A DNA stretch of 64,000 nt from Streptomyces sp. MMG1121 (lineage in GTDB: Bacteria; Actinomycetota; Actinomycetes; Streptomycetales; Streptomycetaceae): positions 1 through 64,000 of the forward strand of contig NZ_LGDV01000038.1 in assembly GCF_001280015.1 (NCBI RefSeq), in the 5' to 3' direction. The notes beneath the pieces were generated by a model. It was not told where the DNA came from. It made no database searches and saw only the letters and a list, made by a program, of their open reading frames with translations. Numbering within the stretch: the stretch's first letter is position 1; every line of letters begins with the position of its first letter. Below are positions 10,983 to 20,875 of the stretch, piece by piece. The position numbers were made by a program, and so were the translations under genes.

Positions 10983-11531
10983 ATGCAGTCAAGCAACGGT
11001 CGTGCCCGCGGAGCCGGGGACGGTTCCGAGAGTTCGGCCGAGAACCGGGAAGATCACGGCGCGCCCTCGCGCGACGCGACGCACGAGGACCCTTGGTACG
11101 ACGCGCTGGCCTCCGGCTGGGGTGAGCTGGACGGTGCCGGTATGCCGGCGGCAGTGGTTCCGTCCGCTCGTGGGGAGCGAAGCGGACCGCAGGTTCGCGC
11201 CCGCGAGGTGTATGTCGAGGTGCAGAGCAGCGCCGCTTTCCAGGAAGTGCGCAGGAGGTACCGACGGTTCGTCGTGCCGGGAGCCGTCGCCTTCCTCGTC
11301 TGGTACGTGGGGTATGTGGTCGCCGCCACGACCGCGCCAGGCCTTATGGGCCGGCCCGTGGCGGGAGCGGTGAACGTGGGCATGCTGGCCGGGCTCGGGC
11401 AGTTCCTCACCACGTTCCTGCTCACCTGGGCCTACGCTCGGCATGCGCGGCTGCGCCGGGACCGGGCGGCGCTCGAGCTGCGCTGGGACACGCAGGAACT
11501 GACCCGCGGTGTGCGGGGAGGCGCTTCGTGA
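10983..11531 (+). CDS. DUF485 family membrane protein, symporter partner
   Basis: About 182 residues from ATG 10983. A TTG at 10977 would add two residues, and no good ribosome site precedes either. The first 80 residues are polar and Gly/Ser/Arg-rich. Then FQEVRRRYRRFVVPGAVAF leads into two membrane helices (about 95-120 and 132-155), the DUF485 pattern. DUF485 proteins are encoded with ActP-type solute:sodium symporters, and here the stop overlaps the symporter start by four bases. It probably assists or modulates that transporter. The long polar N terminus is longer than in the E. coli homologue YjcH. Confidence 0.85.
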   Translation: MQSSNGRARGAGDGSESSAENREDHGAPSRDATHEDPWYDALASGWGELDGAGMPAAVVPSARGERSGPQVRAREVYVEVQSSAAFQEVRRRYRRFVVPGAVAFLVWYVGYVVAATTAPGLMGRPVAGAVNVGMLAGLGQFLTTFLLTWAYARHARLRRDRAALELRWDTQELTRGVRGGAS

Positions 11532-13120
11532 CCGGGGGCCATCAGACGCTGGCGTTGGTGTTGTTCAGCGGCTTCGTGGCCGTCACGCTCGGGATCACGA
11601 CATGGGTGAGTCGTCGTAGGCAGGGTTCGGCGGAGGAGTTCTACGCGGGCGGGCGGCTGTTCTCGCCTATGGAAAATGGTTTCGCCATCGCGGGGGACTA
11701 CATGTCGGCCGCATCCTTCCTCGGGGTCACCGGGCTCATCGCGCTCTACGGGTACGACGGGCTGCTGTATGTCGTGGGGTTCCTGGTGGCGTGGCTGGTG
11801 GTGCTGTTCCTGGTGGCGGAACTGGTGCGCAACTGCGGGCGGTTCACACTGGCAGACGTGGTGGCCGCGCGGATGAGCGAGCGGCCGGTGCGGATCGCGG
11901 TGGGAACGTCCTCGGTCACGGTGTCCGTTCTGTATTTGGTGGCGCAGATGGTCGGCGCGGGCAGCCTGGTGGCGCTGCTGCTGGGGCGGTCGAGCGGGAT
12001 GGCGCAGGCCTGGGCGGTCATCGGGGTCGGCGCGCTCATGGTGATCTATGTGTCGATGGGAGGGATGCGGGCCACGACCTGGATCCAGATCGTCAAGGCG
12101 GTCCTGCTGCTGGGCGGGACGGTCGTGCTGACCGTGCTCGTCCTGCTGCGCTTCCACGGTGACTTCGACCGGCTGCTGCTCGCGGCCGCGGAGCGCAGCG
12201 GCCACGGCAGGGCGTTCCTGGCGCCGGGCCTGAAGTACGGCGGGACCTGGACCGCGCGCCTCGACTTCATCAGCCTGGGTCTCGCCCTGGTGCTGGGTAC
12301 GGCGGGGCTGCCGCACATCCTGTCCCGCTTCTACACCGTGCCCACCGCGCGCGCCGCCCGCCGCTCGGCGGTGTGGTCCATCGGGCTGATCGGCGGCTTC
12401 TACCTGATGACGATCGTCCTCGGTCTGGGCGCGGCCGCGGTGGTGGGGCCGGACGCCGTGCGTGGTTCGAACGCGGCCGGGAACACGGCGGTCCCGCTGC
12501 TCGCCCTGGACCTGGGCGGCGGCGCGGGCTCCACGGGTGGGACGGTTCTGTTCGCCGTCGTGGCCGCCGTAGCCTTCGCCACGATTCTCGCCGTGGTCGC
12601 CGGCATCACGCTCGCCTCGTCGGCCTCGGTGGCGCACGACCTGTACGCGTCGCTGCGACGGCGGCACGGCAAGCCGCGCAGCGAGGTCGCGGTGGCGCGG
12701 TTCGCGGCGTTCGGTATCGGCGTCGTGGCGATCGCGCTCGGCCTGCTGGCCCGCGATCTCAACGTCGCCTTCCTCGTCGGCCTCGCCTTCGCGGTCGCCG
12801 CGTCGGCGAACCTGCCCGTGCTGCTGTACTCGCTGTTCTGGCGTGGCTTCACCACCCGCGGCGCGGTGTGGGCCGTATACGGCGGGCTGGTCCCGGCGCT
12901 CGGGCTCGTGCTGCTGTCCCCGGTGGTCTCCGGCAGTCCGGGTGCATTGTTCCCGAGCGTCGACTTCCAGTACTTCCCGTTGCAGAACCCGGGCATCGTC
13001 TCCATCCCGCTCGGCTTCCTGGCCGGCTGGCTGGGCACGGTCACCTCGGACGAGGTCGCGGACGAGGCCAAGTACGCCGAGACCGAGGTGCGATCGCTGA
13101 CCGGTGCCGGGGCCGTGTAG
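11528..13120 (+). CDS. Sodium:solute symporter, ActP-like (acetate/monocarboxylate)
   Basis: This 530-residue protein belongs to the SSS family and has about 13 membrane segments. Family signatures are EEFYAGGRLFSPMENGFAIAG followed by DYMSAASFLGVTGLIA near the N terminus, and the conserved GTAGLPHILSRFYTVP in the middle, both strongly ActP-like. Acetate or another short monocarboxylate is the likely substrate, driven by sodium or protons. It is co-transcribed with the DUF485 gene. A CitA/CitB-type two-component system that could sense carboxylates is encoded about 500 bases downstream on the opposite strand. The link is suggestive only. Confidence 0.9.
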   Translation: MTGGHQTLALVLFSGFVAVTLGITTWVSRRRQGSAEEFYAGGRLFSPMENGFAIAGDYMSAASFLGVTGLIALYGYDGLLYVVGFLVAWLVVLFLVAELVRNCGRFTLADVVAARMSERPVRIAVGTSSVTVSVLYLVAQMVGAGSLVALLLGRSSGMAQAWAVIGVGALMVIYVSMGGMRATTWIQIVKAVLLLGGTVVLTVLVLLRFHGDFDRLLLAAAERSGHGRAFLAPGLKYGGTWTARLDFISLGLALVLGTAGLPHILSRFYTVPTARAARRSAVWSIGLIGGFYLMTIVLGLGAAAVVGPDAVRGSNAAGNTAVPLLALDLGGGAGSTGGTVLFAVVAAVAFATILAVVAGITLASSASVAHDLYASLRRRHGKPRSEVAVARFAAFGIGVVAIALGLLARDLNVAFLVGLAFAVAASANLPVLLYSLFWRGFTTRGAVWAVYGGLVPALGLVLLSPVVSGSPGALFPSVDFQYFPLQNPGIVSIPLGFLAGWLGTVTSDEVADEAKYAETEVRSLTGAGAV

Positions 13121-13646: not shown

Positions 13647-14327
13647 TCAGACGCGCGTCGCCCACACGTAGCGGTGTTCCGGGCGGCCCGCGTCGCCGTA
13701 CTTGAGGGTCAACCGGGCCCGTCCCGTGCGCTCCAGCAGTTTCAGATAGCGCTGGGCGGTCTGCCGGCTCACCCCGGTCCGCTCGGCGATCTCCTGTGCG
13801 GACAGCGGCCCCTGGGCGTTCATCAGTGCCTGGCGCACCAGCTCGGCCGTCGTGGGGGAGTGGCCCTTGGGCAGGCCGGGCTCCGACGGCGCGGACAGGG
13901 CGCCGAAGATCCGGTCCACCTCGGCCTGTTCGGCCTCGCCGCCGCCGTCCAGGGTGCGTCGCAGGTCGGCGTACGCCTCCAGCTTGGACCGCAGTCCGGC
14001 GAAGGCGAACGGCTTCACCAGGTACTGCAGTGCTCCGTGCCGCATGGCCGCCTGCACGGTCGACACGTCCCGCGCCGCCGTCACCATGATCACGTCGGTC
14101 TGGTGGCCGCGCCGGCGCATCTCCCGCACGACCGCGATACCGGTGTCGTCCGGCAGGTAGTGGTCCATGAGGACCAGGTCCAGCCGCGGCAGCGTCTCCA
14201 CCAGGCGCAACGCCTCGGCGGCGTTGTGCGCCTCGCCGGCCACGTGGAAGCCCGGGACCTTCTCCACGTAGGCGGCGTTGACCCGGGCGACGCGGGTGTC
14301 GTCGTCCACGACCAGGACCTCGATCAT
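13647..14327 (-). CDS. Response regulator, CitB/DcuR type
   Basis: A 226-residue regulator. The receiver domain (about 1-120) has VVDDDTRVARVNAAYVE and phosphorylatable Asp55 in VLMDHYLPDD, typical of CitB/DcuR proteins. The C-terminal part (about 155-226) carries a helix-turn-helix with AQEIAERTGVSRQTAQRYLK. It overlaps the kinase gene upstream by four bases. Such systems usually control uptake or breakdown of C4-dicarboxylates or citrate. No transporter of that class is adjacent, but a carboxylate symporter gene and an ABC relic are just downstream. Confidence 0.93.
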   Translation of the reverse strand: MIEVLVVDDDTRVARVNAAYVEKVPGFHVAGEAHNAAEALRLVETLPRLDLVLMDHYLPDDTGIAVVREMRRRGHQTDVIMVTAARDVSTVQAAMRHGALQYLVKPFAFAGLRSKLEAYADLRRTLDGGGEAEQAEVDRIFGALSAPSEPGLPKGHSPTTAELVRQALMNAQGPLSAQEIAERTGVSRQTAQRYLKLLERTGRARLTLKYGDAGRPEHRYVWATRV

Positions 14328-16063
14328 CGCGTCTCCTCCTCGACGGCGGCGGGAACGCGCCCGGGGGCCGGCTCCGCCGCTCTTGTGAGCGCGGGCTCCG
14401 GCACCGGCTCCGGTTCTGACTCCGGTTCCGGTCTCGGCTCCGGCCCCGGCTCGGTGAGCGCGTCCGGCAGGACCACCGTGAACTCCGCGCCGCCGCCGTC
14501 CGCGGTGCCCACTGCCGCCGTGCCGCCCTGCCGTTCGGCCAGCCGGCGCACCAGGGAGAGTCCGATGCCCCGCTTGCCGTGCGCGGGCGGTTCCTTGGTG
14601 GACCAGCCCTCCGTGAAGACCAACTCCCGCTGGTCCGCCGGGACACCTGGGCCGGTGTCACGCACCCGGAGGACGACCGTACGGCCCTCGCTGCGCAACT
14701 CGACCTCCACGCGCGCGTGCAGCGTGCCCGCGACCGCGTCCAGGGCGTTGTCCACCAGGTTGCCCACGACCGTGACCAGGCCCCGGGGATCGATCAGCCG
14801 GTCCGGGAGCCGGGTGCGTTCCGACACCCACAGGGCGACTCCGCGCTCGGCCGCCACGGTCGCCTTGCCGACCAGCAGCGCGGCCAGCAGCGGGTCCTGG
14901 ATCCTCTCGGTGACCTGCTCGGCGGTGACCCGGTGGTCGCCGACCACCTCGCCGACGAACTCCACGGCGTCGTCGTACATCTCCAGATCCAGCAGCCCGA
15001 GCAGGGTGTGCATGCGGTTGGCGTGCTCGTGGTCCTGGGCGCGCAGGGCGTCGATCAGCCCGCGCGTGGAGTCGAGTTCCCGCCCCAGCTGCTCCAGTTC
15101 GGTGCGGTCGCGCAGGGTGGCCACGGCGCCGCCGTCGTCGGTGGGCATACGGTTGGCGACCAGCACGCGCTGGCCGCGCACCGTGAGCAGATCGGTGCCG
15201 GTGACCCGGCCGGCCAGGACGTCCGTCGTGCGGCCCGCACCGAGCGCCTCGTCAGGCGTCCGGCCGACCGCTTCGTCACCGAGGCACAGCAGCCGCCGTG
15301 CCTCGTCGTTGAGCAGACGGACGCGGCCTTCGCGGTCGAGGGCGACCACGCCCTCCCGGATGCCGTGCAGCATCGCCTCGCGTTCCGCCAGCAGCGCCGA
15401 GATGTCGGAGAAGGCCAGGTCCCGGGTCTGCCGCTGGACCCGGCGCGAGATCAGCCAGGCGGCCAGCGCGCCCACCGCCAGAGCGCCGCCGGCGTACGCG
15501 AACAGCCCCGGGATCGCGCTGATCAGCCGCGCCCGCACGCTGTCGTAGGCGATACCCACCGAGACCGCCCCGACGATCCGGTGGCCGGCGTCGTACAGGG
15601 GCACCTTGCCGCGGGCCGAGCGGCCCAGGGTGCCCTTGTCGATCTCCATGACGTCGTTGCCGGCCAGGACGTCGCGGGGATCTGTCGAGACGGGTGCGCC
15701 GATCTCCGAGGCCGTCGGATGCGACCAGCGCATTCCGTGGGTGTCCATGACCACGATGTACTCGGCCTGGGTGGCCCGCCGGATCCGCTCGGCCTCCCGC
15801 TGTACCGGGCCGTTCCGGGTCGGCGGGGTGTTCTGGACGCCCTCGGCGATCTGCGGGTCCTGGGCCGTGGTCTGGGCGATGGCCAGTGCGCGGCGCATCG
15901 CCTCCTGGTCCAGTTGCTTGCTCAGCGGGGCGAGGAACAGTCCGGTCGCGAGTACCGCCACCCCTGCGGCGATGGCCACCTGCATGAGCAGTACCTGGGA
16001 GAACACCCGTCGGGGCAGGCCCAGGCGCAGGCGGCGTGCAGGGGGAGTGGGGCGCATGCCCAC
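14324..16063 (-). CDS. Sensor histidine kinase, CitA/DcuS type
   Basis: A 579-residue kinase starting at GTG 16063 or ATG 16057. TACCGT lies seven bases before the ATG, so a leaderless message is possible. Two membrane segments (about 18-42 and 182-205) flank an extracytoplasmic PAS-like sensor domain with EYIVVMDTHGMRWSHPTASE, the hallmark of the citrate/dicarboxylate sensor family. A cytoplasmic PAS domain (about 230-330) precedes the transmitter, with DHEHANRMHTLLGLLDL as the H-box region and DNALDAV as the N-box. The last 45 residues are a Pro/Glu-rich tail (PEPRPEPESEPEPVPEP) that most relatives lack. The ligand is unknown. Confidence 0.92.
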   Translation of the reverse strand: MGMRPTPPARRLRLGLPRRVFSQVLLMQVAIAAGVAVLATGLFLAPLSKQLDQEAMRRALAIAQTTAQDPQIAEGVQNTPPTRNGPVQREAERIRRATQAEYIVVMDTHGMRWSHPTASEIGAPVSTDPRDVLAGNDVMEIDKGTLGRSARGKVPLYDAGHRIVGAVSVGIAYDSVRARLISAIPGLFAYAGGALAVGALAAWLISRRVQRQTRDLAFSDISALLAEREAMLHGIREGVVALDREGRVRLLNDEARRLLCLGDEAVGRTPDEALGAGRTTDVLAGRVTGTDLLTVRGQRVLVANRMPTDDGGAVATLRDRTELEQLGRELDSTRGLIDALRAQDHEHANRMHTLLGLLDLEMYDDAVEFVGEVVGDHRVTAEQVTERIQDPLLAALLVGKATVAAERGVALWVSERTRLPDRLIDPRGLVTVVGNLVDNALDAVAGTLHARVEVELRSEGRTVVLRVRDTGPGVPADQRELVFTEGWSTKEPPAHGKRGIGLSLVRRLAERQGGTAAVGTADGGGAEFTVVLPDALTEPGPEPRPEPESEPEPVPEPALTRAAEPAPGRVPAAVEEETR

Positions 16064-17161: not shown

Positions 17162-18427
17162 TTACTCCGGCAGGGGCTGCGGCGGGCGCGTGCCGACGTA
17201 GTGGCCGACGGGGCGCATGCGCAGCGGGCGCTCGCCGTACTCCTCCAGCGCGTGCGCGATCCAGCCCGCCGTCCGGGCCACGGCGAAGATCGTCTCGCCG
17301 GCTGTGGCGGGCATGCCGCTGGACGCCGTGAACACCGCCAGGGCCAGGTCGACGTTGGCGTGCAGCGGGGTGTGCCGGGCGGTCGTGGCGGCGATGTCCC
17401 GGGCGGCGAGCAGGGCGGACTCCGCGTGCGGGACCTCCTCCAGGAGTTCGAACAGCACGCGCGCGCGGGGGTCTTCACCGGTGTACAGCCGGTGGCCGAG
17501 CCCGGGGATGCGGCGGCCCGCGCGCAGTTCGTCGGCGATCACCGGGACCGCCGTGCCCTGGTCGAGCACGTCCAGCAGCATGCGGTGGGCCATCCCGCTC
17601 GCGGCGCCGTGCAGGGGGCCCTCCAGGACGCCGAGCCCGGCCGAGACGGCCGCGTAGGCGTGCGCGCGGGCCGAGGCGGCGACCCGGACGGCGAGCGTGG
17701 AGGCGGCCAGGTCGTGGTCGGCGAGCAGGGCGAGCGCGGTGTCCAGGACCCGCAGGGACGCCTCGTCGGCGGGGCGTCCGGTCAGCCGGGCCCACAGGCG
17801 GTGGGCCAGCGGGCCGTCGTCCCGGTGGTCGTACCGGACCGGCGGCAGCGCGGTGACGAGCGTGGGGATGAGGATCCGCGCAGTGTTCAGCACGGCGTCC
17901 TCGGAGAGGTCGAAACGCAGCGGGTCCTCGGCCGCCGCGGCGACCGCCGCCACCCGGAGCCGGTCGGTGGGGGAGGCGTGCTCGGACAGAGCGTTCACCG
18001 CGCGGCGGGCGACCTCGACCGTGGCCTCGGGCGCGGACAGCGTCGCCCCCGGGGTCAGCCGTCCCGTCCACAGCCACTCGGCGACCTCTTCGTAGGAGTG
18101 GCGCAGGGCCAGCTCGACGGCGTCCACGCCGCGGAAGAAGTACCGGTCCTGTTCGATCAGCGTGATGCGGGTCCGGACCGACAGGTCGCCGCCACTGCCC
18201 GGGCTGCCTGCGGCCTCGCGCCGGTTGCGGCGGGCGAGGGCCTCGACCTCCTTCGCCTCGAAGGTGCTGGCGCGCCCGCCGGGTTCGCGTCTGCTGCTGA
18301 GCAGACCGCGGCTCACGTACGCGTAGACCGTCTCGGGCTTCACACCGAGCAGTTCGGCGGTCTCCTTCGTGGTCAGCCTTCGTTCGGGACGGCCGGGAGC
18401 GGGTTCGTGATCGCGCATGGGGGCCAC
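17162..18427 (-). CDS. Citrate synthase-like protein with N-terminal HTH domain
   Basis: Up to 421 residues from GTG 18427, or 418 from ATG 18418. Residues about 17-65 form a MerR/excisionase-like winged helix (RLTTKETAELLGVKPETVYA, YVSRGLL). The rest is a full-length short-type citrate synthase fold. The catalytic-site equivalents are present: GPLHGAASG (first His), GLGHRLYTGEDPRA (second His with the Arg-rich loop) and HANVD (Asp). The segment after the Asp is LALAVF instead of the usual FYSG. The fusion suggests a DNA-binding protein whose ligand domain is a citrate synthase, either an enzyme that also regulates or a regulator that senses oxaloacetate or an acyl-CoA. It is divergent from a second citrate synthase gene with a palindromic operator between them. 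Confidence 0.88.
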   Translation of the reverse strand: MAPMRDHEPAPGRPERRLTTKETAELLGVKPETVYAYVSRGLLSSRREPGGRASTFEAKEVEALARRNRREAAGSPGSGGDLSVRTRITLIEQDRYFFRGVDAVELALRHSYEEVAEWLWTGRLTPGATLSAPEATVEVARRAVNALSEHASPTDRLRVAAVAAAAEDPLRFDLSEDAVLNTARILIPTLVTALPPVRYDHRDDGPLAHRLWARLTGRPADEASLRVLDTALALLADHDLAASTLAVRVAASARAHAYAAVSAGLGVLEGPLHGAASGMAHRMLLDVLDQGTAVPVIADELRAGRRIPGLGHRLYTGEDPRARVLFELLEEVPHAESALLAARDIAATTARHTPLHANVDLALAVFTASSGMPATAGETIFAVARTAGWIAHALEEYGERPLRMRPVGHYVGTRPPQPLPE

Positions 18428-18446
18428 CGTAGTCGTCTCTGTACAG

Positions 18447-18496
18447 CTTGATAGAGGTGTATTGATTCAATCAATATTGACAGGGAATAAGTCAAG
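18447..18496. promoter_or_regulatory. Operator cluster between the divergent citrate synthase genes
   Basis: ATTGATTCAATCAAT (18461-18475) is a perfect 7+1+7 inverted repeat in an AT-rich island. Further half-sites flank it: CTTGAT at 18447, ATTGAC at 18476 and GTCAAG at 18491. TTGACA at 18477-18482 is a perfect -35 for the plus-strand gene, with GACAGT 18 bases downstream as a weak -10. A protein bound here would cover that -35. The HTH-citrate synthase encoded next door is the obvious candidate. Confidence 0.65.
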
Positions 18497-18531
18497 CATG
18501 GACAGTCGGATCAAGTCCAGGGAGGAAAACC

Positions 18532-19698
18532 ATGTCCATCAACAGGACCGCCACCCCGCTCATCGACGCCCCGCGCGGCCTCGCGGGCGTCGTCGTCGCC
18601 GAGACCGAGATCGGTGACGTCCGGGGACGGCAGGGCTTCTACCACTACCGCCAGTACTCGGCCGTCGAGCTCGCGCAGACCCGCGGTTTCGAGGACGTCT
18701 GGCATCTCCTGGTCCACGGCGCGCTCCCGGACGCGGAGCGCCGAGCCGCCTTCACGGCGGAGACCGCCGTGCTGCGGCGGCTGCCCGAGGAGGTCCGCGC
18801 CGCGCTGCCCGCGATCGCCGCCGCGAGCCGCGTCTCCGGCCCACTGTCCGGGCTGCGCACGGCCTTGTCCCTGCTGGGCGCGGCACAGGGCATGCGGCCG
18901 GTGTACGACATCGACGCCGACCGGCGCCGGGCCGACACCCTGGCCGCCTGCGCGGCCGTACCCACACTGCTCACCGCGCTGTACCGGCTCGGGCAGGGCC
19001 TCGACCCGGTCGAGCCGCGCGAGGACCTGGCTCACGCGGCCAACTACCTGTACATGCTCACGGGCGAGGAGCCCGAGCCGCAGCGGGCCCGTGCTGTCGA
19101 GCAATACTTGATCTCAACCATTGATCACGGATTCAATCCGTCAACCTTCACGGCCCGTGTCATCGCCTCCACCGGCGCCGACGTGGTGGCTTGCCTGACC
19201 GGAGCGGTGGGTGCCCTGTCCGGGCCGCTGCACGGGGGAGCGCCCAGCCGGGCCCTCGAGACCCTGGACGCCATCGGCACGCCGGACCGGATCGATTCCT
19301 GGGTCCGCGAGCGGGTGCTCGACGGTGACCGGATCATGGGGTTCGGACATGCCGTCTACCGCACGGAGGACCCCCGTTCACGGATGCTGCGCGAGATCGC
19401 CCAGAGCTTCGGCGGCCCGCGCGTCGACTTCGCGGTGGAGGTCGAGCGCGGCGTCGAGGCGATCCTCGCCGAGCTGAAGCCCGGTCGCGCACTCCACACC
19501 AACGTCGAGTTCTACGCCGGCGTGGTCATGGAGCTGTGCGGCCTGCCCCGCGAGATGTTCACCCCCACCTTCGCCGCGGCCCGGGTGGTGGGCTGGAGCG
19601 CGAACATCCTGGAACAGGCGGCCGATTCGAAGATCATCCGCCCGGTCGCCCGCTATGTCGGACCGGAGCCCCCGGTGGCGGTACCGGCTCAGCCGTGA
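18532..19698 (+). CDS. Citrate synthase 2 / methylcitrate synthase-like
   Basis: A 388-residue short-type citrate synthase starting at ATG 18532 after a strong GGGAGG site. It would condense acetyl-CoA or propionyl-CoA with oxaloacetate. Active-site regions are GPLHGGAPSRAL, GFGHAVYRTEDPRSRM and TNVEFYAGVVM. In the last the catalytic Asp of NVDFYSG is Glu, and the usual GHR of the second His motif is GHA. I believe this is a subgroup feature of actinobacterial CitA-like enzymes rather than decay, but activity is not certain. Codons around 19102-19147 are strikingly AT-rich for this genome and contain operator-like half-sites. It is divergent from the HTH-fused paralogue. Confidence 0.88.
   Translation: MSINRTATPLIDAPRGLAGVVVAETEIGDVRGRQGFYHYRQYSAVELAQTRGFEDVWHLLVHGALPDAERRAAFTAETAVLRRLPEEVRAALPAIAAASRVSGPLSGLRTALSLLGAAQGMRPVYDIDADRRRADTLAACAAVPTLLTALYRLGQGLDPVEPREDLAHAANYLYMLTGEEPEPQRARAVEQYLISTIDHGFNPSTFTARVIASTGADVVACLTGAVGALSGPLHGGAPSRALETLDAIGTPDRIDSWVRERVLDGDRIMGFGHAVYRTEDPRSRMLREIAQSFGGPRVDFAVEVERGVEAILAELKPGRALHTNVEFYAGVVMELCGLPREMFTPTFAAARVVGWSANILEQAADSKIIRPVARYVGPEPPVAVPAQP
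19102..19147 (+). promoter_or_regulatory. Candidate intragenic operator in rare codons
   Basis: Within the citrate synthase gene the codons run CAA TAC TTG ATC TCA ACC ATT GAT CAC GGA TTC AAT CCG TCA. Eight of these are uncommon in a genome that prefers G or C in third positions. The result is TTGATCTCAA (19108-19117) and ATTGA with TCAAT eight bases apart (19120-19137), the same half-sites as the intergenic operator. Codon choice therefore appears constrained by a DNA-binding site. Confidence 0.5.
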
Positions 19699-19774
19699 GC
19701 CCGCCCCAGGGTGCCGCTCTTATCCTGGTCCGGCAGTCGGTCCACGTGAGAGAGGTCGCCCGTTGGGGAACACC

Positions 19775-20875
19775 ATGGCGAACAGCCCGGGCAGCAGCAG
19801 CGGTCCGCAGCAGATCCCGGTCGTCGTGCTCGCCGGGTTCCTGGGCTCCGGAAAGACCACGCTCCTCAACCACCTGCTGCACCGCAGCGGAGGCAGCCGG
19901 ATCGGGGCGATCGTCAATGACTTCGGGGCCATCGAGATCGACGCGATGGCCGTCGCGGGCGCCCTCGGCGACTCGACCGTATCTCTCGGCAACGGCTGCC
20001 TGTGCTGCGCCGTCGACGCGAGCGAACTCGACGGCTACCTGGACCGGCTCGCCGCCCCCGGCACCGGCATCGACGTGATCGTCGTCGAGGCCAGCGGGCT
20101 CGCCGAGCCGCAGGAACTCGTGCGGATGGTGCTGGCCAGCGAGCACCCGAGGATCGTCTACGGCGGTCTGGTCGAGGTCGTGGACGCCGCCGAGTTCGAC
20201 GACACCCGTGCCCGGCACCCCGAACTGGACCGGCATCTGGCCCTCGCCGACCTCGTGGTGGTCAACAAGCTCGACCGGGCCGCGGACGGCGACCGGGTGC
20301 TCGGCCTCGTGCGCTCCCTCGCGGACCGTGCCGCCGTCGTCCCCGCCACCTACGGCCGCATCGACCCGGAGTTCCTCTTCGACTGCAGGCCCAGCGAAGA
20401 GCGCATCGGGCAGCTGTCCTTCGACGACCTGCACGAACACGACCTGCACGAACACGACCCGCACGAGCACGACGCGCACGGCCACGCCGGTCACCTGCAC
20501 ACCGCCTACGACAGCCTGTCGTTCACCTCCGACCTGCCCCTGGACCCCCGCGCGCTCATGCGGTTCCTGGACAGCCGGCCCGAGGGGCTGTACCGGATCA
20601 AGGGGTACGTCGACTTCGGGCCGTACGACACCCTCAACCGGTACGCCGTGCACGCCGTCGGCCGGTTCCTGCGCTTCTACCCCGAGCCGTGGGCCGCGGC
20701 CGGTGCCCGGCTCACCCAGCTCGTGCTGATCGGTTCCGGCGTCGACACCGACGCCCTCGGCAAGGAGCTGGAGGCGTCCAGGAACGACGGCGCCCCACAC
20801 GCCGACGAGCGCGGCATGTGGAGCGTCCTGCGCTACGTCCAGGGCTCCGAGGAGGAGCCCGACGCCGCGCCGTAG
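19775..20875 (+). CDS. COG0523 (CobW/YjiA-type) metallochaperone GTPase
   Basis: A 366-residue G3E GTPase starting at ATG 19775 after TGGGGAA. It has Walker A GFLGSGKT (residues 21-28), the metal-binding CxCC motif in GNGCLCCAVD, VVEASGLAEP as switch region and NKLD for guanine recognition. A His-rich insertion of four HEHD-like repeats follows residue 215 and probably buffers zinc or another metal. The C-terminal CobW domain ends near 350. Such proteins deliver metals to enzymes, often under zinc limitation. No zinc-uptake regulator box was recognised upstream. It lies 76 bases after the citrate synthase gene and ends 16 bases from parC, tail to tail. Confidence 0.9.
   Translation: MANSPGSSSGPQQIPVVVLAGFLGSGKTTLLNHLLHRSGGSRIGAIVNDFGAIEIDAMAVAGALGDSTVSLGNGCLCCAVDASELDGYLDRLAAPGTGIDVIVVEASGLAEPQELVRMVLASEHPRIVYGGLVEVVDAAEFDDTRARHPELDRHLALADLVVVNKLDRAADGDRVLGLVRSLADRAAVVPATYGRIDPEFLFDCRPSEERIGQLSFDDLHEHDLHEHDPHEHDAHGHAGHLHTAYDSLSFTSDLPLDPRALMRFLDSRPEGLYRIKGYVDFGPYDTLNRYAVHAVGRFLRFYPEPWAAAGARLTQLVLIGSGVDTDALGKELEASRNDGAPHADERGMWSVLRYVQGSEEEPDAAP
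20426..20485 (+). repeat. Four 15-bp tandem repeats encoding the His-rich loop
   Basis: Units start at 20426, 20441, 20456 and 20471. The first two are identical (GACCTGCACGAACAC), and the third and fourth diverge by two and five bases. They encode DLHEH, DLHEH, DPHEH and DAHGH within the COG0523 protein. Slippage at the DNA level could change the number of metal-binding residues. Confidence 0.8.

Follow-up and report, generated by a model that had tools for sequence, protein, structure and literature searches.

In Bacillus subtilis the LysR-type regulator CitR is encoded divergently from citA, the gene of a minor citrate synthase, and we know of no codon-embedded sites in this system. MocR/GabR-type and other enzyme-domain regulators consist of a helix-turn-helix (HTH) and a metabolic enzyme fold that acts as the sensor; aminotransferase, kinase or nudix folds are used in this way. 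Furthermore, lac O2 and gal OI are auxiliary operators inside coding sequences, at a distance of a few hundred bp from the operator at the promoter. Our literature search found no paper on a transcription factor with a citrate synthase domain. In the relevant section of a study on MtrA, this regulator bound a probe of the intergenic region between SCO5831 (citA3) and SCO5832 (citA4) of Streptomyces coelicolor, and both genes rose in the mtrA mutant (PMC12323332). A two-component system may repress SCO5831 according to an excerpt of a further report (PMC9739823).

The window analyzed here is the whole stretch of 64,000 nucleotides from Streptomyces sp. MMG1121. It carries two divergent citrate synthase-like genes, which we take to be the counterparts of SCO5831 and SCO5832, from recall and from agreement with the MtrA study and not from a database match. 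The minus-strand ORF (17162-18427) encodes HTH_17 (PF12728, E 5e-9) together with Citrate_synt (PF00285, E 4.5e-65), and the plus-strand ORF encodes Citrate_synt alone (E 4.5e-111). The PF00285 scores of 220.5 and 371.8 bits, respectively, compare with a gathering cutoff of 27. The ORF of the fusion opens with GTG 18427. Since this codon overlaps the putative -10 box of the gene, ATG 18418 is the likelier start, giving a probably leaderless fusion gene at 17162..18418 (-). The stand-alone, SCO5832-like citrate synthase gene (here referred to as CS) is located at 18532..19698 (+). The nearest solved relative of its product was citrate synthase 1 of B. subtilis (2c6x). The stand-alone CS of the window reads NVEF at the place of the NVD seen in the fusion and in several solved citrate synthases, presumably a Glu in place of the catalytic Asp; the same Glu is present in B. 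subtilis citrate synthase 1.

The fusion was detected in 106 of 200 genomes of the family and in 53 of 296 of the class. In total, 1,690 proteins matched its residues 1-120 at E<=1e-30, and all 120 listed ones carry PF00285. Where these 120 carry a name, it is nearly always citrate synthase, citrate/2-methylcitrate synthase or citrate synthase family protein, and in one case helix-turn-helix domain-containing. A monocarboxylic acid transporter and a DcuS/DcuR-like two-component system are located near the pair (11528-13120 and 13647-16063). The MctC equivalog model matched the transporter above its cutoff, whereas the DcuS and DcuR models stayed below theirs. Both fit a role of the locus in the use of short-chain acids.

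A structure prediction of the fusion was of moderate quality (pLDDT 73, pTM 0.69) and was used for domain limits only. It places a winged HTH (wHTH) of the MerR/BldC/Xis-like kind at residues 17-73 (18209..18379, -), with predicted elements E17-19, H20-27, H31-39, E45-47, E54-57 and H58-73. A low-confidence linker (74-90) and then the citrate synthase fold would follow. The nearest solved sequences to the wHTH were Gp37 (4j2n) and 6ama/6amk, which we take to be BldC structures; all these matches were weak (E 0.01-0.08). In 187 distinct fusions the recognition helix is near-invariant, with T33, Y35, Y37, S39, R40 and G41 in all 187 and K30 in 186. Positions aligned to solved enzymes include what we assume to be the catalytic His/His/Asp and the oxaloacetate-binding His/Arg, and these are kept as well: H238, H273, R321 and D360 in all 187 aligned fusions, R405 in 186 and H312 in 182. 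The retained active site suggests that the fusion can probably bind oxaloacetate and an acyl-CoA.

The MerR model PF00376 matched the N-terminal wHTH with 29.6 bits (cutoff 28.2), and the HTH_BldC model matched with E 5e-6, which is under its cutoff. In the moderate-confidence model the coiled-coil dimerisation helix of MerR proteins is absent after the wHTH, where helix 58-73, the low-confidence linker 74-90 and the citrate synthase domain would follow one another. MerR operators lie in promoter spacers of 19-20 bp; the CS spacer measures 17-18 and the palindrome described below is upstream of it. At the second promoter, that of a CoA-transferase gene, the palindrome is upstream of the -10 box, and no clear -35 box is visible. 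BldC-family members are short stand-alone wHTH proteins that bind direct repeats, whereas the fusion has 421 aa, a large second domain and an inverted repeat as operator. With its HTH covalently linked to an enzyme fold, the fusion conforms to the architecture of the MocR-like enzyme-domain regulators.

For the comparative analysis we used 80 named Streptomyces loci (the best 80 of at least 496 relatives) and loci from further genomes. After removal of identical intergenic sequences 166 loci remained, 147 of them with a divergent CS. As the original prediction had stated, a palindrome is located between the two genes: the 15-bp candidate operator ATTGATTCAATCAAT is exact at 18461..18475 (no strand) and was found with at most 2 mismatches in 119 of the 147 divergent loci. 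The most conserved core, ATCAATATTGAC (RTCAAYRTTGAY; 18470..18481, no strand), was present in 146 of 147, so that the half-sites proved conserved among orthologues as expected. In the window the intergenic half-sites are TTGA at 18448, 18462 and 18477 and TCAA at 18471, 18492 and 18511. The first of these, an extra TTGA upstream of the palindrome (18448..18451, +), is shared by many close relatives and lacking in others.

Downstream of the core, TTGAC was followed at 17-18 nt by a GANRGT-like hexamer, (G/T)AN(A/G)GT, in 125 of 147 loci, and the form GACAGT occurred in 110. This is likely the CS promoter, with the -35 box TTGACA (18477..18482, +) overlapping the conserved core and GACAGT (18501..18506, +) as the -10 box. 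On the other strand TACGGT (18426..18431, -), 7 nt before the ATG, would be the -10 box of the fusion gene. It was found 6-8 nt before the ATG or GTG in 82 of 89 loci of the window's clade, here defined by fusions at least 75% identical to that of the window; at least five of the seven misses have TACCGT at this place. Such a distance is the pattern expected of a leaderless transcript.

The palindrome is rare elsewhere. Within 2 mismatches it occurred at two places of the 9.45-Mb genome, exactly in this intergenic region and with 1 mismatch at the CoA-transferase promoter. A third match of the core lies inside an unrelated coding sequence. In the sequence on either side of the intergenic stretch, 1,097,314 bases over the related loci, there were 2 matches at <=2 mismatches, and both directly precede relocated CS genes (L051, L066). 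In 13 loci from other families of the class (L260-L272) a related motif was seen by eye at the same place, RTCAAYGTTGAC in five and RATCAAYATATCTA in eight. Loci L260-L266 and L270, from another family, have ATATCTA instead of TTGACA after the motif; there the CS promoter seems to be rearranged around the same half-sites.

Presence of the palindrome followed presence of the fusion. Among 121 genomes of the genus it was found (<=2 mismatches) in 75 of 77 with the fusion and in 13 of 44 without it (tallied by eye; Fisher 3e-16), and a reversed control pattern matched in 26 of the 121 (counted by eye). Together with the near-invariant recognition helix, this co-occurrence supports the proposal that the fusion is likely to act on the divergent promoter as a transcription factor, with citrate synthase as its sensor domain. 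The fusion was present in 77 of these genomes, CS in 75 and both in 73; hence CS accompanied 73 of 77 fusions and occurred in 2 of 44 genomes without one. Four genomes (G009, G052, G319, G326) carried the fusion without CS. Of the two CS loci in which no fusion was seen, L278 lies on a contig that ends ~560 bases past the palindrome, so that the fusion was probably cut off. In L276 the CS (72% identity) lacks the palindrome, the core and the internal element described below, and GGACAGTC (-10) and the ribosome site are kept. In an earlier search CS was found in 0 of 20 fusion-less genomes, and the same query matched in 16 other genomes.

Rearranged loci allow the two genes to be considered separately. 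CS genes that had moved away from the fusion kept a palindrome of their own (L051, L189), and an inversion in L066 left one copy at each gene. In L051 the palindrome is gone from the upstream region of the fusion itself. Of 19 loci in which CS is not divergent from the fusion, 10 had the palindrome with <=2 mismatches and five with 3-5 mismatches; no palindrome was found in the remaining four (L051, L086, L101, L107). The palindrome thus tracks CS more strictly than the promoter of the fusion, which leaves autoregulation less well supported than control of CS. Genomes G089 and G048 (loci L189, L190, L191, L089 and L096) have a CS copy away from the fusion that starts only near codon 38, as if broken; a further CS copy in G089 (match over residues 1-385) carries a palindrome of its own.

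The sole other match in the genome of the window at <=2 mismatches precedes a gene for a class III CoA-transferase (PF02515). In its orthologues ATTGATTNAATCAAT is located directly upstream of CATAGT (-10), with the ATG about 7 nt on. This position argues for repression. We compared 24 loci of the genus, drawn from 31 genomes with a match; six of the other seven genomes were from outside the genus and one yielded no locus. Of 13 fusion genomes 9 had the palindrome, compared with 0 of 11 fusion-less ones (Fisher 0.0006), leaving four fusion genomes without it. A different palindrome, TGGCACTNAGTGCCA (<=2 mismatches), occupied the CoA-transferase promoter in 7 of 11 fusion-less genomes (L227, L230-L235) and in 0 of 13 fusion genomes, an apparent swap of the operator and presumably of its regulator. 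Among the matches listed, nine fetched loci of the genus had a palindrome away from the fusion, and three of these (L243, L245, L247) precede the CoA-transferase gene. No common context was visible for the other six (L244 and L246 with 1 mismatch, L248-L251 with 2 mismatches). The one-mismatch palindrome of L244 (position 2109, G212) is upstream of a gene whose product has a lipoprotein-like start.

A subtilisin-like protease gene upstream of the CoA-transferase gene contains the codons GCA TTG ATC AAR TCA ACN CAT. They form a site of 15 bp, ATTGATCAAGTCAAC, located 205-396 bp before the CoA-transferase palindrome. The site has the half-site spacing of the operator and differs from it at 2-3 positions. 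The protease genes of 27 loci were compared (the 24 above and three fetched for their palindrome), of which 23 were readable at the site. The site was present in 7 of 12 loci with the CoA-transferase palindrome and in 0 of 11 without; for proteases with the same ALIKS peptide the figures were 7/7 and 0/7. In the five loci with the palindrome and without the site, the protease is more distant (58-62%) and its peptide differs. The site is also the peak of AT content at third codon positions (AT3) in the protease gene, with 0.41 against a mean of 0.051, and the peak of the control group was 0.17. Random synonymous sequences reached such a match in 7% of cases with equal codons and in 0.3% with Streptomyces-like third bases; hence the association and the base skew count more than the match alone. 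The phasing of the site relative to the CoA-transferase palindrome varied with the assumed period (P 0.007 at 10.7, 0.065 at 10.5 and 0.59 at 10.3). The second target promoter and this codon-embedded palindrome beside the CoA-transferase gene add to the original prediction.

A codon-embedded element had already been proposed within CS itself, as AT-rich codons that recreate the half-sites of the operator. It comprises codons 191-205, CAATACTTGATCTCAACCATTGATCACGGATTCAATCCGTCAACC (19102..19146, +), and contains TTGA at 19108 and 19121 and TCAA at 19114, 19133 and 19141. The AT-richness and the half-sites were found as described, but a palindrome with the spacing of the operator was looked for inside CS and not found, the internal half-sites being differently spaced. 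The 24-base middle of the element occurs once in the genome within 3 mismatches. Five such tetramers in 17 codons of the window compare with a mean of 1.33 in random synonymous sequences (P 0.0007); a stricter count of 7-mer half-sites was weak (P 0.05-0.10).

We aligned 149 distinct CS sequences, 91 from the clade of the window and 58 from outside, after two with internal stops had been dropped. Codons 191-205 were the AT3 peak of the gene over all 149 sequences (0.259, mean 0.089). Within the clade the value was 0.396, with other windows of the gene at a mean of 0.095 (sd 0.034, max 0.238), and outside the clade it averaged 0.044. At fourfold sites of the 91 clade sequences the ratio of A to T was 243:8 in the element and 1039:1184 elsewhere in the gene. 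The codon choice therefore goes beyond what the protein needs, as had been suspected. Leu193 was encoded by TTG in 43 of the 91 sequences, compared with 112 of 3,277 other Leu codons of the set. Among the 80 named loci, a comparison of six genes (38-80 loci per gene) gave 0.272 for the next best coding window, against 0.406 for the element. A rival window of 0.430 in the cobW frame was rejected, since it precedes the likely ATG at 19775, after which the top value was 0.166. The stretch 19699-19774, before this ATG of the CobW-like gene, is AT-rich in relatives and is maybe the cobW promoter.

On a tree built without the sites of the element, the fourfold codons 196 and 204 showed few changes (2 and 8; mean elsewhere 18.4, 5th percentile 6.6), and in the slow codon 196 the retained base is the generally preferred C. 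The fourfold codons 195, 200 and 203 were ordinary (18, 22 and 17 changes against the same mean), and the two- and threefold codons 191, 197, 198 and 202 (15, 6, 23 and 22 changes; mean elsewhere 7.8) were ordinary or faster. Of the expectation that synonymous sites here vary less than elsewhere, a base composition far from that of the rest of the gene was recovered, while the number of changes at most sites was like elsewhere. The base choice is thus strongly skewed with turnover, and the letters are not frozen. Using six marker codons, 71 of 91 clade sequences scored at least 4 and 10 scored at most 2 even though the fusion was present; outside the clade L136, L138 and L143 scored 2, 3 and 5. 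The element was gained or lost about nine times on the tree. In the three relocated CS copies with a palindrome (L051, L066, L189) it is eroded to 2, 2 and 3 of 6 (the third by eye), which is suggestive of a need for proximity, although there are only three such copies and they are also more divergent. The broken copies L190 and L191 have no palindrome and keep the element, perhaps because they are recent. The phasing from the palindrome to the element gave R 0.65 over 84 loci and only 0.38 over 20 distinct distances; from the core it gave 0.64 (70 sequences) and 0.21 (15 distinct distances), and site-less loci gave 0.07 and 0.15. Because the palindrome spacing is absent and the change rates are ordinary, the role of this element is less certain than that of the operator.

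Taken together, we propose that the fusion acts as a repressor, with a citrate synthase domain that has retained its catalytic residues as the sensor, and that intragenic operators aid it; we put the probability of this reading at roughly 70%. Binding, sign of regulation, ligand, autoregulation and bridging, as far as the motifs suggest them, would be as follows. A fusion dimer would bind ATTGATTNAATCAAT through its N-terminal wHTH. The palindrome adjoins the putative CS -35 box and is upstream of the predicted leaderless promoter of the fusion, so that a single operator may act on both. In some members of the clade it also appears just upstream of the CoA-transferase -10 box, which would fit steric repression. 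The fusion would turn down CS, the CoA-transferase gene and probably itself. Oxaloacetate and/or acyl-CoA, or citrate, in the retained active site would alter its affinity for DNA and thereby release or engage the repressor. In many clade members each promoter appears to be paired with an intragenic element in rare synonymous codons, ~650 bp downstream within CS and, within the protease gene, 205-396 bp ahead of the CoA-transferase palindrome. If they serve as auxiliary operators, a higher citrate synthase oligomer may connect them to the promoter site and raise its occupancy. Looping of the DNA or a roadblock, both put forward in the original prediction, may be how the CS element acts. The complete version, a citrate synthase turned regulator (substrate-binding, perhaps catalytic) acting at two promoters, each paired with an operator in synonymous codons and bridged by a multi-headed oligomer, is put forward tentatively, as we rate it somewhat below an even chance.

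The strongest competing explanation leaves the promoter palindromes to the fusion and assigns the CS-internal element to another regulator or nucleoid protein with a preference for short clusters of AT-rich sequence (BldC- or Lsr2-like). We consider this a substantial possibility, against which we would still bet. The spacing inside CS is unlike that of the palindrome, and the nine or so changes of state as well as the 10 of 91 fusion-bearing clade members with a weak element would be in line with a separate reader. BldC has moreover been described, in the parts of the two reports that treat its binding, as reading degenerate AT-rich repeats (PMC5859096, PMC6428758). However, the TTGA/TCAA units of the operator are enriched in the element, and the excess of A over T speaks against mere AT-richness. 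The protease site has the spacing of the operator and was seen only together with the CoA-transferase palindrome, and the erosion in the three relocated palindrome-bearing CS copies also counts against a separate reader.

The sign of regulation at CS could differ as well. A palindrome just upstream of the -35 box is also compatible with activation, and its centre (18468) is located ~45 bp before the likely CS start; the fusion might thus activate CS from a class II position and repress only itself and the CoA-transferase gene. This appears unlikely, though not far-fetched, since the conserved core overlaps the CS -35 box itself and the CoA-transferase palindrome is just upstream of the -10 box, where RNA polymerase would bind.

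We consider it improbable that the fusion works as an ordinary citrate synthase, its HTH being vestigial, and that MtrA, GlnR or another regulator reads the intergenic palindrome. The retained active-site residues would suit an enzyme, and MtrA shifts the S. coelicolor probe of this region, with both genes up in the mutant, as given in the corresponding section of that study (PMC12323332). On the other hand, the recognition helix is near-invariant and palindrome and fusion co-occur. The MtrA site predicted in S. coelicolor in the same section (PMC12323332), whose window position we assigned by similarity and by eye (18499..18514, no strand), appears over the -10/+1 region and away from the palindrome.

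Even less can be said for the rare CS codons as a translational pause or folding signal without any DNA site. Their rarity in these genes and their location in the conserved motif DHGFN.STF would suit such a signal, yet this reading is disfavoured by three controls: 35 paralogous citrate synthase genes of 16 genomes showed no AT enrichment at the element (AT3 0-0.20), the 58 orthologues outside the clade had a low average, and a specific base is preferred (A, not T), as is TTG for Leu193. An RNA structure or antisense promoter is the most remote explanation, for although visual inspection suggests CATTGA/TCAATG arms in many clade members, the window RNA folded no better than shuffles (z -0.82, one fold), the skewed positions are outside the arms and a pair-breaking AAC is present in 27 of 91.

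If the proposed reading is true, a large actinobacterial family mostly named 'citrate synthase' would consist of transcription factors, and the CoA-ester and oxaloacetate status would be linked directly to promoter control. Codon choice would then be under selection for the control of central-metabolism genes over long distances, and a clean, recodable system in which to study synonymous codons as auxiliary operators would be available in the two codon-embedded elements. Caution would also be advisable where SCO5831-type genes are counted as spare citrate synthases in metabolic models.

In comparison with described systems, the section of the MtrA study on the same intergenic region treats both genes as putative citrate synthases under MtrA and, unlike the present reading, mentions neither an HTH nor a palindrome (PMC12323332). 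BldC of Streptomyces, a MerR-like wHTH protein, is related to the wHTH of the fusion through weak matches. According to the parts of the reports that describe it, BldC has 68 residues, no effector domain and direct repeats as its sites (PMC5859096, PMC6428758), whereas the fusion combines a palindrome with a large second domain. The arrangement resembles CitR/citA in that a regulator and a citrate synthase are divergent around a shared control sequence, but CitR is LysR-type and without a citrate synthase domain. In architecture the fusion is like the MocR/GabR-type regulators, with citrate synthase as the enzyme fold. Finally, unlike lac O2 and gal OI, one intragenic element is here located in the divergently transcribed target and the other in a neighbouring gene upstream, with a presumed bridging to the promoter sites.
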